DNA from: Anas platyrhynchos
Lineage: Eukaryota; Chordata; Aves; Anseriformes; Anatidae
Direction of reading: 5' to 3'
NCBI RefSeq assembly: GCF_047663525.1
Contig: NC_092611.1
Span: 6,051,001-6,115,000 of the forward strand
Length of the DNA: 64,000 bases
Shown: in pieces, positions 1 through 63,908 of the stretch
Layout: every line of letters begins with the position of its first letter
Numbering within the stretch: position 1 is the first letter of the stretch
Program-made: the position numbers and the translations under genes
The notes under the pieces: generated by a model
The model's input: the letters and a program-made list of their open reading frames with translations, nothing else
What the model was told of the DNA's origin: nothing
Databases searched by the model: none

Positions 1-20441
<20,441 letters not shown>

Positions 20442-47500: not shown

Positions 47501-47577
47501 AGCCTTTTTACCTGGCTGTGTGGTTAGTGATTGTTACTTTTGGCAATCAGCTAACTACACTGCCTAGTAACTAGGCT
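47501..47577 (-). ncRNA. MIR34C: mir-34c precursor
   Basis: The minus strand contains the miR-34c guide at 47543-47565: AGGCAGTGTAGTTAGCTGAT followed by TGC. A short loop follows, then the star arm, which reads AATCACTAACCACACAGCC with one change from the mammalian CACACGGCC. The flanks AGCCTAGTTACT and GTAAAAAGGCT pair at the base. The 77-nt hairpin is the same length as in human. miR-34 family members repress cell-cycle and Notch-pathway targets and, together with miR-449, support multiciliated and germ cells. It lies 680 bp downstream of mir-34b on the same strand and probably shares its primary transcript. Confidence 0.97.
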
Positions 47578-48198: not shown

Positions 48199-48282
48199 GT
48201 GCATTGTTTTGATGGCAGTGAATTTAGTGATTGTGAAGCAATGGATACAATCAGCTAACTACACTGCCTGCAAACCAAGCAC
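48199..48282 (-). ncRNA. MIR34B: mir-34b precursor
   Basis: The guide arm is at 48248-48270 on the minus strand (CAGGCAGTGTAGTTAGCTGA followed by TTG). The opposing arm reads CAATCACTAAATTCACTGCC, and the stem is closed by GTGCTTGGTTTG pairing with CAAAACAATGCAC. The 84-nt length matches the mammalian precursor. The guide lacks the mammalian-type GTCATTAG variant, so its core equals that of miR-34c here. It is oriented like HOATZ, about 1.8 kb upstream of HOATZ exon 1, and divergent from BTG4, as at human 11q23.1. Confidence 0.96.
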
Positions 48283-55144: not shown

Positions 55145-56669
55145 ATGAAAGATGAAATTGCTGCCACGGTCTTCTTCATCACAAGGCTGGTGAAAAGGGA
55201 AGACAAGCTGAGTAAGCATAAAATTGAGAAATTTGCAGCTAAGTTGACAACAATACTGTTTGAGAAGTACAAGAATCACTGGTACTTGGACAATCCATCC
55301 AGAGGACAAGCCTTCAGGTAAGGATTCTTAGCAGAAGAGAAGGCAGACTGGAGTCTTTGCGTGGCATTGAAGATACAGCAAATGTAACTAAATGAAAGCT
55401 AGCTGTTAACTTGTTTAAAAAAAAAAAAAAAAAGAGAATTCTGAAAGTAGTTCCCTGGGATGTGTCTGGAGTTATCTAGAGAGCCAGGGTAGAAAACCAA
55501 AGGCAATGTACATACTCCTATGACTTCTTGAGCGCAGAACTTAAGTGGCCTTAATGACTCCGAATTGTAACAACTTAAAGTCTCCAAAAATGACCATTAG
55601 AGTGAGTTGCTGCATAATGTCTTAAAATGAACAAGTAACAGAGGCCTTGTTTGGACATACAAGTCAGCTAGTTATGTTAACTTGCTTCTTCAAGTTGTGA
55701 GAACTTCCATCAACAAGCTGTGTTAAATAAACTGTAGGGAACCTGATTGTATTTCTGGATGAGCAGAACTTGCGAAGCTGCATCTGGAATTCAATGTTCT
55801 ACCTGCCCTTGTACTCCTAACTAGGTGTATAAGGATAAACAAACATCAGACAAGAGATCCGCTGCTGGAGCAAGCTTGTGTGGAGAGTAATGTGGACTTC
55901 AGTAATCTTGGTTTGCCAAAAGAGATGACACTATGGGTTGATCCATTTGAGGTATGTTGCAGGTGAGTTGAGAACCTGTGACTAACATCATGCTGCGTGT
56001 TCTGTACTGACTTGATCTTTGCCAAACTTACGAAAGAAACTGTCTGAAGGTGTACTTCTGTATTAGTGTCAGGTGAGTAGTAGCAAATGTCTGTACTGCT
56101 TGTGCAGAACTGTGTGATACAAATACAGTTTCTTCCAGGTATGGTGAGAAGAACCGGCCGTTCACAATTGCCCACTTCGAGGGAGAGGAGAACCCAGAGC
56201 TCCCTCAGCAGATCAGCTATGCTGTTGACAGAGCAGCTCTAGACTATCAGTCTGGCACCTCTTCTGATGAGGAGAGCTTCATCAAGGAACCAAAAGCTAT
56301 CCCTACTGTCAGTAACCCTAACAGTATCTACCAGGTAAATATGGTCATGGAATGTAGCTTGTGGTCAGAGCTATCACCTGCCCTGCAGGTTCTGTTGTGG
56401 AGGAGTATGGTAAACTAACAGCTGATGGCCAGACTAGTCTCCCCTCTCTTATTCAAAAACATTTTAACTTCATCTCATTTCTTGTTGTTTAGTTTAGTGA
56501 CTACTGCAAGCCACCCATGCAGCACTGGTCGCAGTATCTTCATAGGAAGACATACATGACTGATGGCTCATACTATGCCCAGCACAGGGGTTACAAAACC
56601 TACAGGCCAACAGCTGCTTTCATAGGACCACGTGTTGATAGATACCACTGGATCAATACCAAGCGGTAG
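55145..56669 (+). CDS. BTG4: BTG4, BTG/Tob family adaptor (4 coding exons, complete)
   Basis: Oocyte and germline BTG/Tob protein that recruits the CCR4-NOT deadenylase to clear maternal mRNA. Exons are 55145-55317, 55825-55962, 56139-56334 and 56493-56669, totalling 684 nt or 227 residues; human is about 223. Phases 2, 2, 0 are consistent. The start [20 protein letters not shown] is the family-typical N-terminus. Box A covers [20 protein letters not shown] to the GQAFRCIRIN region. Box B is [20 protein letters not shown]. The C-terminal half ([11 protein letters not shown], then NHW-like YHWINTKR end) is variable in the family. Exon 2 has two donors 11 bases apart; the downstream one preserves FEVCCRYGEKN and is the correct choice. 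The poly(A) signal is at 56908-56913. Confidence 0.96.
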
Positions 56670-59326: not shown

Positions 59327-59332
59327 TTTATT
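59327..59332 (-). terminator. Poly(A) signal of the unrecognised minus-strand gene (AATAAA)
   Basis: AATAAA on the minus strand about 70 bases past the TAA at 59403-59405, consistent with a short 3' UTR and with that codon being the gene's normal stop. Confidence 0.55.
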
Positions 59333-59402: not shown

Positions 59403-62400
59403 TTAAAACTTTTTACCTAAGGCTATCTTCTCTTCTAATGCCTGTATTTGTCGTACCAAATGGTTTTTTTCCAAACTAGTTAATTCAAGGTGGTCAAAAA
59501 GTAAGTCTTCACTGCCTTTACTCTTCAAAAAGCGGCGTTCACTTTCTATGATATCCACCAGCTCTTCACTTTATCCTCAAGTTCTGAAGAGGTCAAGTAA
59601 GTACAGCTGTCCTCTGCTGAGCTAAAGAAATGGAACGCTTAAAATCAGACAAAGTGACACTGATGGTGCTATCTGTAGACTTTTCACAAGACCAAGCCAG
59701 AAAGATCAATTTCACAGAAATTTAACTTCTGTTACTCAAAAGATGATAGCTTAGAGAGAAGCAATCAGTCTTTGTAACAAGCAGGCAACACATTCAGCCT
59801 GTCCTTTATACAGTGTCAGTAGACGTAGCAGGTTGTGGAAATTGGTTTTGTAGTGTAGAGTGAGGTCATAATGAAGAGGTGTCATGATTTGCTTCGTTTA
59901 CAACCCCCCAGATTGTTTGATTGTTGATATCTTAATACAAGAGTTCATAATACATCCTCTCAAATCATTCTTACCGTGTCCTCCATCCCAAACTGCCCTT
60001 TTCATAGCTGCTTAAGGCATGAAGGAAATGTTCTTTCATCTTCACAAACAACTTGCTATTTAGTGGTTCCTCAAATGTGTCATACAATAAGCACAGAAGT
60101 GGAGAGAGCAAATCAGTGTTAATTTTAAAAACCATTTATAGACTCCTTAAATATATTTTTTCATGGTGCTACGTTTTATACTGTCCTAGTGATTCGCATG
60201 AGGCCCAAAATCTCTTTCAGAAAGTTTTTTTCAGATAAAAATAACAGCCTCTGATATTATCTGTGTGGCTTTTAGATTCAAACAGTCACACGCTTGTCCG
60301 GACACCTATAAGCAGGTTTGAATTGCAATTTTGCAATGAAATCAGAATAAGGATGGTGAGTTTTCAACCAGACCAGGACTCACGACCTTTTTTATTACCT
60401 TCTCAAAGGCTTCCATCCCTGTGAAGCTTTTTGCTTTTACCTCAAAAAGTTGTGAGATCAGAGTTATTTCTTCCTTGGAGAATGGTTCTTCCTTTAGTAA
60501 CATCTGAGATATCCCAGAGGAGTTTTCACCCTGGAGAACTGTTGACAGCTGGAGCCTAAGAGAGAACATTTCACCAAGGCAAGTCTTTAGCGCCTAGAAA
60601 AAGAGAATACAGTTTATGGTGGATTTTTGTTGTTGTTGTTGTCTTGCTGTCTTACAGCTGGGGTGAAGCTGCATTATTTAATGTTGAATGTGAACCATTC
60701 TGTGAACAACCTTTGTGCAACAGTGATGGCAGTTCAGATAACAGCCTTTAACCATCTGTTTTTTCACCTTTGATTTTTGTTTTTAGAAGTTGTACAAAAC
60801 TGTTAAAAACACCTTCTTTTAAAAATGGTGCTTTTTGTCCTGACACTGCTGTGATGTAATTACATTTGGAACATATTGATGTACCTGATAAAAAAGCCTC
60901 AGAAAGATTGGGTTGGTGTCTTGGTTGAAGTCAGCGGCAGTGATATGAGCTAAACAGTGCACGAGGAGCAGGAGGAAGCTTCCAGCAGAACCCAGGCAAT
61001 CCCTTAGAATGAACAGCTTGTTCTCTGAATTCTGAGAAAAAACAAATATCCAGAGTTGAGATAAGAGCACAGCAGCAGTCAGCTCAGCTGATGCAACTCC
61101 TCCAAGGGTTGGTCTCAATTTTACAGAAGTTAAAAGACTCAAACTAGAGAATGTTGGTTGGTGAATATCCATATACTAAAGAAAGCAGCATTGTCATAAG
61201 GCTTTCTGTTTTCCTTTGTGTGAAATCTAGCATATTCTCACATGAGGTGTTTCTAGAGTTTTATTTTTGTATTGTGCGCTTTAGAAAACTCTCGATGTCT
61301 TGGAATTTTAGAAATATAGAATCTGACTATTTAGTATTATTTAATTATAGTATATAAAATGCTGATCGGCTGTTGACTTCTCTGAAGGTGACCTGTACAT
61401 AATTTGGTGTAACTTGAATATGAGAGACTAGGTAACCACAGCTTGTTTAATAAAGCATGCTTTGGGTATGACCGTCATACAAAACATTTCTTAAATCTCT
61501 GTATCCTAGAGTGCTCTATTAAGTTTACATTCAGAGATATCAATATAATGTCAATGGTATGCTTCAGATATTTTCCTAGAAAGCATCAAGCATACCCTGA
61601 CTTAAAAATATGAACCATTTCTGCAATCTCCTCCCTAGTTCTCTAATTTAATGGATATGAAAATATTACACAGACTGGTTAGACGTGAAGCTGACACACC
61701 TGATAAAAGTAGCAGTTTCTGAAGGCATTGCCTGTAGCATTACAGAGAGGTATGCTGGAGGCAACACACAGGTTAATTTCTGGAGCCTGCAAAGGGAAGG
61801 CAAATTGCTTCTGTAAAAAGTATGTATGCACATCAGATCTGCAAAGTAAGAGGGATTAATGGGTTATAAATTCATTTAAATGTCAGCTTTGATTTGCAGT
61901 CAGTACACAGAGCCAACAAATACCACAAGGAAATGGAGACTGTTTAAAAAACCCTTGCATATCACAGCAGTTCATCTTGCCAGTTCTCTAATTAAATAAA
62001 TGAAAGTGTACTCTTGCCCTGGAGCTCTGACTGTAGTCACCATTATTTTTATTATTATTTATTTGATATTTTTATGAAAGACCCTGCAGAGTCTACCTTG
62101 ACTGCAGCCATAATGTGCAAAGAACAGTAAAAAGAAAATGGGACTCCTTGCTCCAAATTACTAAAAATGAAAAGCTTTATCCTAATATTAGGCAGTCCTA
62201 GTATTATGCATATGCAGCAATTAGGTAATGCAAGAATTAAGTGATGTGCTCAAGAAAGATGGCACAAGAAATAAAAGAATGGATCGTGGATCTTGTGGGA
62301 CAGAGATTTGACTTCAAAGTTGTTGTGGAGAAAACAAATGGATTGCACTTCCTGATGCTCTCACACTAGTTATTCTCTGCTTGATCTTACTTGATAGTTG

Positions 62401-63908
62401 TTGAAAGATTTTTTGGGTACCTGTATTCTTTTAAAAGCACTGATCACTGAACACCAGTGTCTTAAGAACTTACATCAATGTGAAGTCTGAGAAATTGCAG
62501 GATGGAGATGCCGTACTGATATATGACAAACTCCCTTGTAGAAAGAGTTGCAGAATCAACTACTATTAGTTCTCCTTCTTGATCCATCAACTTATCTTGT
62601 ATACCCTGATAAGAATTTTCTGTTTCTACAAAGAACAGTAACATTTTGTTAAACTAAATAGTGTTTTTTTCATTTTGTTTGTCCAAGAGGGAACATTGCA
62701 ACACAAGCATGTAATATGCTGCATTTCTCACCTTTTAACACTTTGTCATTATTCAGTATAAAATTAAGCCCTTCTGATGCATTAGAAATTTTTTCAAGAG
62801 TCATGCCATGCTTTATTCTCATGCAACCCCCAAAACCTCCTTCTGAAATTTCAGATAAGGTCTAAAATAGCGAGATGACTTGTGTGCCTCTGATTTCATC
62901 AGCAGCAACAGCTGAGTGATTCTGGGTCTGTCTTCCACTGCTACAGCACTTTCTTCAGAGGACAGTAAATCTAAGTTGCCTGTCCAGTAAAATCTTATCA
63001 CAATAAAAACAAAATGAATGATAAAACCCAAATCATTACATTACATTCACCTTCTGACATTTCTTGTAAGAATGAGCAGAGATGAGGTTTACTTTTGTCC
63101 AGCTTTTGGCTTTGTAGTAATCCAGTTGCTGCCGCATGACTTTGGAGCTCATCATTGACATCTTTCAGAAGACCAAGAAGAAAAGAGGTTTCTAGATACT
63201 TAGTTTTATTACCACCTGTGTAAAGAAATAGAGAAATGCTGCTTTCTTAAACAATCCATCTCTAAACCATCATTCCAAAAAGGAATTATACAAGCAAGGT
63301 GAGATAGGTAAATAATTTTGCTGTTTGGAGCACAATATTGAAGTCTGGGCAAAGACATGTCAACATTTCAGAGAAAATCTCTCTTTCAAAAACACTTTAC
63401 AGTATTCAGTTGGCTAGTTCTCTCTCTTTTTTTCATGTACCTCAAATACTATATGGAAGTCTTTGTTTACACAGGGAGATGGTACTCTCAATATCAAAAC
63501 AAGCAAAAATTCAAAATCCTGCCCTCCCGCACCAAAAAAACAAAACCAAAAAAAAAAAAAAAACCAACATCAAAACAAGACCAAAACCTAAGTGCTTCTT
63601 ATTCCCACAGATTTTGGTTGGGCTTCTTACAGAACACTCCTGGCAATTTTTCCCAACAGTGTTGTGTTTGTTTCCAGTGTGTCTTTCTTGATGAAAAAAT
63701 AGATGATCTGCCTTTGAGTCTATAAATAATGTCTTTCTATTGCATATCTCACCTAATTGGTAGGATTTATTTTTTAACTAATGAATGCAACATTGATTGC
63801 AAAATAATTTAAACTTTTTACCATACAGAGGAGGTGTTGTGAACTGTGGATTCAGAAGAATAATTCTGGATGCCATCAGGTGTTCTGCCTGCTTCAGCAC
63901 CTTGATGT
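59403..63908 (-). CDS. Unrecognised multi-exon gene, 3' part (eight exons; 5' part off the right edge)
   Basis: I do not recognise this protein. Exons by splice consensus and phase: 63822-63908, 63051-63215, 62732-62842, 62474-62625, 61700-61786, 60885-61031, 60384-60593 and 59403-59679. The first seven join without a phase conflict and encode about 320 residues. Segments in order: IKVLKQAEHLMASRIILLNP; KYLETSFLLGLLKDVNDELQ; GGFGGCMRIKHGMTLEKIS; GELIVVDSATLSTREFVIYQ; APEINLCVASSIPLC; a hydrophobic LGSAGSFLLLLVHCLAHI; EITLISQLFEVKAKSFTGM; and a charged C-terminal coiled-coil-like LEKNHLVRQIQALEEKI. It looks like a mostly helical intracellular protein. The last exon needs two single-base corrections to stay open, so the gene may be decaying or the sequence imperfect. 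It converges on BTG4. I know of no human gene in the equivalent position between BTG4 and POU2AF1. Confidence 0.75.

Follow-up and report, generated by a model that had tools for sequence, protein, structure and literature searches.

A candidate for an overlooked vertebrate gene: a large predicted single-pass membrane protein encoded beside BTG4

Proteins with ephrin-receptor-like (Ephrin_rec_like) and cEGF domains carry a Cys-rich ectodomain behind a signal peptide, and in the plakin and plectin repeats each unit of ~38–45 residues opens with the motif DPxTG. The protein predicted from the locus described here resembles the first group in having a Cys-rich ectodomain after a signal peptide, with the best-matching stretches at residues 75–106 and 126–144. 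The Pfam matches fall under the curated cut-offs of both families, with cEGF (PF12662) matched at E = 1.9e-5 and 24.9 bits (cut-off, 26.6; shorter query, 25.3 bits) and Ephrin_rec_like (PF07699) at E = 0.001 and 19.3 bits over two stretches (cut-off, 23.1; shorter query, 22.6 bits). The model differs from such proteins in that the searches found neither a kinase nor any other known cytoplasmic domain, and in that its ~1,640 later residues (exons 10–36) have chance-level Pfam matches or none. As in the plakin and plectin repeats, the units of the predicted protein open with DPxTG, a resemblance that would suggest a cytoskeletal linker role, whereas the unit is ~15 residues long here compared to ~38–45 residues there. 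The plakin repeat family was set aside, as Pfam returned nothing at E ≤ 1 for the repeat block (431 residues).

The first-pass annotation of the window (the whole stretch of 64,000 nucleotides that was analysed) had placed seven exons of a gene on the minus strand at 59403–63908, with good acceptors and donors and a poly(A) signal behind the last exon, and had advised extending the model rightwards. Neighbouring DNA was taken in as L002–L005 (added to extended coordinates as L002 +63000, L003 +73000, L004 +83000, and L005 +93000), the first 1,000 bases of L002 being a repeat of the window end, and exons were read by hand, aided by a simple splice-and-codon gene finder. The observation lies on the minus strand, and the 5′ part of the gene is therefore found beyond the right end of the window. 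Followed in that direction, the exons continue through the neighbouring DNA to L004 and number at least 43 in all. The minus-strand exons at 59403–63908 are the 3′ end, approximately the last fifth, of one much larger gene that reaches L004 (88487). In the 43-exon model, the gene begins on the minus strand with an ATG at 88487 (L004 5487), closes with a stop codon whose last base is 59403, and spans ~29 kb, with ~2,500 residues predicted from at least 43 exons. Strand, usable splice sites, and poly(A) signal of the original interval all hold, and the exon count rises to nine by the present reading (exons 35–43). Features at the 3′ end, along with the repeat block and the microRNA precursors discussed below, are as follows.

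L003 about 2000–5300, minus strand: Asp-Pro-x-Thr-Gly repeat units, without a Pfam match at E ≤ 1.
L002 1863–1671, minus strand: exon 34, with the junction to exon 35 in phase.
63822..63908, minus strand: exon 35, open (phase in 1, out 1).
63051..63215, minus strand: exon 36, open and in phase (1/1), the last exon ahead of the first frame break.
62732..62979, minus strand: exon 37, with a one-base frame shift between ~62861 and 62821 and preceded by an intron of 71 nt.
62474..62625, minus strand: exon 38, open in the frame that, once shifted, suits the exon 37 donor.
61700..61786, minus strand: exon 39, open (phase 0/0).
60885..61031, minus strand: exon 40, open (phase 0/0).
60399..60593, minus strand: exon 41, open (phase 0/0).
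59975..60069, minus strand: exon 42, whose weak acceptor ranks at the 53rd percentile of all the region's AG sites.
59403..59621, minus strand: exon 43, the last, in which the frame shifts again by one base between ~59570 and 59548; it holds the stop codon at 59405–59403.
59327..59332, minus strand: poly(A) signal AATAAA.
47506–47572 and 48206–48276, minus strand: two mir-34 precursors (Rfam RF00456), between HOATZ and BTG4.

As modelled, exons 1–36 comprise 6,388 nt and 2,129 residues with no stop codon, and all 35 junctions are in matching phase. Several exon boundaries were picked among alternatives, partly by phase (the acceptor of exon 9, the donor of exon 10, and ends of exons 2, 13, 14, 21, 22, and 42). 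Automatic gene-finder models disagree with the hand model in several exons, and some automatic exons in GC-rich stretches were discarded as false. The introns (n = 42) reach at most 1,371 nt, and the one between exons 36 and 37 (window 62980–63050, minus strand; 71 nt) is the shortest among them. An open, exon-like stretch of 28 residues with good-looking splice sites, including a strong-looking donor, occurs at L002 8691–8610 (minus strand) and is perhaps a cassette exon between exons 25 and 26; it was omitted from the model because its phase does not fit there. Overall, the locus very probably holds either a real gene or a very young pseudogene, and it is likely that a single gene of the proposed architecture is present. 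We regard the locus as a good candidate for a vertebrate gene that has been overlooked, although the case is unproven.

The gene adjoins BTG4, as had been noted at the outset. BTG4 was located on the plus strand at 55145–56669 (three predicted exons and one middle exon placed by similarity alone), so that the 3′ ends of the two genes face each other ~2.7 kb apart. Nearby on the minus strand are genes that we take, by eye, to be SIK2 and LAYN, as well as what is presumably HOATZ, matched with a human protein sequence. POU2AF1 was not found within the 103 kb examined using a human query, and the idea of a POU2AF2/POU2AF3-type gene was set aside on architecture alone. Upstream of the gene there are ankyrin-repeat exons (L005 about 8600–9900, minus strand; Pfam Ank, 5.1e-13). 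A published study assigns HOATZ to the genes of motile cilia and flagella (PMC7132099). Adjacency alone ties the HOATZ, mir-34, and BTG4 neighbourhood to the present gene, and a scan of L004 for the RFX motif, associated with cilia, returned one match with three mismatches compared to 3.4 expected by chance.

Searches of families, structures, genomes, and literature bear on how novel the gene may be. The residues of the 3′ exons, which the first-pass annotation could assign to no family, indeed match none in Pfam at E ≤ 10 (exon 36–42 query). Pfam returned no family for exons 20–36 at E ≤ 1 and, for the block from exons 10–14, five matches no better than chance (best E = 0.024), while a shorter query from the repeat block matched ANAPC3 only, again at chance level (E = 0.68). 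A PDB sequence search returned no match for any of four query sequences, and nothing in a literature search, judged mostly on titles and the openings of abstracts, was recognised as concerning the gene. Within the source genome (1.26 Gb, 42 contigs), all five matches of the repeat block and all eight matches of exons 29–36 fell at the present locus, establishing a single locus for both of these blocks at the level of sequence. Stop codons inside those matches (one for the repeat block; four across three matches for exons 29–36) occur because the alignments overrun the modelled exon ends. The repeat block had no pattern match among viral contigs, and of 54 pattern matches to exons 17–19 among genome contigs, none was confirmed by tblastn.

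The alternative that survives best is that the gene is already annotated in other vertebrates, named or not, which is compatible with the single large gene that we favour and which we consider evenly balanced between true and false. Automatic annotation would ordinarily pick up a gene so large in a conserved neighbourhood, and neither the literature nor the Pfam collection searched lists unnamed loci. Other annotations may well carry the gene as an uncharacterised locus. Against prior annotation stand the Pfam results for exons 10–36 (chance-level matches, or none at E ≤ 1) and for the exon 36–42 query, the empty PDB search, and the literature search without a recognised match.

The reading frame is broken twice near the 3′ end. 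The frame entering exon 37 hits a stop at 62821, and the frame compatible with exon 38 is open only past a stop at 62864; similarly, the frame entering exon 43 stops at 59548, and the one that finishes at 59403 opens only past a stop at 59573. If a single frame is carried on without a shift, stops occur in exons 37, 38, and 40–43. The ~320 continuous residues previously reported for the interval are thus not continuous, and the reported agreement of phases across its junctions stands in part: by phase arithmetic done by hand for exons 35–43, all eight junctions are compatible, but only given the one-base shift inside exon 37. A small intron as the cause of the exon 37 break was rejected by reasoning, as only ~40 nt are available, which is too short. 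The breaks in exons 37 and 43 point either to sequence errors or to recent damage to the gene, and the one in the last exon may alternatively be a natural earlier stop.

Recent damage would make the locus a young pseudogene of the present lineage, with 36 near-intact exons and two 3′ frame shifts that cut or alter the last 15–20% of the protein. One-base shifts inside the otherwise open exons 37 and 43 fit such a history, as does the weak codon signal in exons 38–42 (assigned frame, 0.2; other two frames, −7.6 and −17.8). We nevertheless consider it unlikely, since the preceding 2,129 codons are, as modelled, without a stop or frame shift, and neutral decay would be expected to scatter breaks over the entire gene. 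Two breaks would place the death of the gene at most a few million years ago, by a rough estimate based on mutation rates in birds. Furthermore, the stretch holding the first break contains a run of five G, and runs of G are a frequent site of sequencing error. The readable part of BTG4 next door (the three predicted exons and the middle exon found by similarity) has no break, though this is too little sequence for an estimate of the error rate.

Within the favoured model of one gene, the predicted protein fits a type I single-pass membrane protein, having a signal peptide assigned by eye and one internal segment defined by hydropathy. Residues 1–15, directly after the ATG at L004 5487, form a hydrophobic, signal peptide-like start, and in-frame stops lie upstream of this ATG. 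In exons 1–36, 19-residue windows with a mean hydropathy >1.6 start at residues 467–479 only, corresponding to a stretch at residues 467–497. The ectodomain ahead of this segment bears four N-glycosylation sequons, and the region right after it is helix-favouring. Further along, the repeat block (residues 772–1202; 431 residues) is composed of Asp-Pro-x-Thr-Gly units of ~15 residues, for example DPATEIEVPVLGVTI, HPHTGQKLTVGGTYL, and NPITGMLTPLEIGGPM, with the clearest unit starts at residues 894, 909, 924, 940, 956, 970, and 984. Self-comparison of a 213-residue stretch of this block gave two peaks, one at a lag of 47 that exceeded the 95th percentile of maxima from 200 shuffles and one at a lag of 15 that fell just short of it. 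The units are possibly a new repeat family. The 927-residue tail encoded by exons 20–36 is for the most part rich in helix-favouring residues and runs on into exons 37–43.

The same architecture could arise if two adjacent genes, one for a Cys-rich membrane protein and one for a repeat-bearing helical protein, had been merged by phase-guided joining. Composition does differ on the two sides of the membrane segment, with the 467 residues ahead of it holding 26 Cys and the 1,637 residues after it 21. However, the phase chain is intact over exons 9–12, where the model passes from membrane to cytoplasm, and no intron of the 42 is longer than 1,371 nt, so that a merger of two genes appears quite improbable. 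The intact chain is not independent evidence, as both the acceptor of exon 9 and the donor of exon 10 were selected from several options.

Coding signal was compared with chance by means of the gene finder's own optimum for the whole region, a less biased test than the hand model. Minus-strand scores for the whole region were 67.3, 115.1, and 164.9 at the three exon penalties applied, compared to 5.1, 29.3, and 52.8 on the plus strand at the same settings (the last, the laxest, with 21 exons). The maxima among 60 dinucleotide shuffles per setting were 0.0, 1.1, and 16.5, and none of the 60 reached the minus-strand score at any of the three settings. The interval 59403–63908 alone scored 0.0 at all three settings, the same as all 60 shuffles, indicating that by this test the stretch alone does not rise above chance and that the case for the tail exons depends on their being joined to the remainder of the gene. 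In exons 1–36, stop codons occur in none of the 36 assigned frames compared to 68 of the 72 alternative frames. Across the whole model, median splice-site ranks lie at the 95th percentile for donors (n = 42) and the 97th percentile for acceptors (n = 42) of the 1,446 GT and 2,284 AG in the region; phase agreement, stop counts, and ranks are all inflated because exon ends were picked by eye, partly to fit phases. Weak sites are also among those chosen, the weakest being the exon 42 acceptor. The codon score of exons 1–36 was 174.8 in the assigned frames compared to 101.2 and 21.3 in the other two, 26 of the 36 exons scored highest in their assigned frame, and GC content at codon positions 1, 2, and 3 was 53.0%, 38.4%, and 45.5%, respectively, compared to 37.4% in 35 introns. 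That chance open reading frames were strung together by eye is scarcely credible: although the exons were selected by eye and the interval scores zero when taken alone, the whole-region score lies far above the 60 shuffles at each setting, the assigned frames contrast with their alternatives in stop codons, and EGF-like and ephrin-receptor-like segments occur in the predicted first exons, making chance joining very unlikely for exons 1–36 as a whole.

The explanation that we hold to be likely is one large host gene encoding a type I membrane protein, most likely as a linker or scaffold from the cell surface to the cytoskeleton. The coding structure of exons 1–36 and the membrane topology were read from the sequence itself; expression, the binding of a ligand and of a cytoskeletal partner, and use in a particular cell type are inferences. 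The Cys-rich ectodomain, with its EGF-like and ephrin-receptor-like segments, would bind a partner outside the cell. A single transmembrane helix would lead into ~2,000 cytoplasmic residues made up of helical segments, the block of repeats in ~15-residue units, and a long helical tail. Repeat block and tail would then hold partners inside the cell, coupling the surface to an internal scaffold. Taken by itself, the linker role is a tentative and somewhat doubtful assignment for the predicted protein. Use in motile-ciliated or germ cells is a reasonable guess but no more than that, made because the neighbours are HOATZ, mir-34, and BTG4.

The broadest interpretation, which we consider rather unlikely, is that the locus represents an ancient vertebrate gene family that mammals lack, encoding a giant receptor-like linker with a short repeat of a new type, used in motile-ciliated or germ cells and kept beside HOATZ, mir-34, and BTG4. 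If expressed, the gene would provide a surface protein of ~2,500 residues, of which ~1,640 modelled residues (exons 10–36) lie outside the families searched and include a repeat type that remains unplaced. If the gene is absent from mammals, a whole cell-surface function has perhaps been overlooked, as human annotation would give no anchor for it. If it has been freshly damaged in the present species, the locus would record a recent gene death that may be dated by means of sister species.
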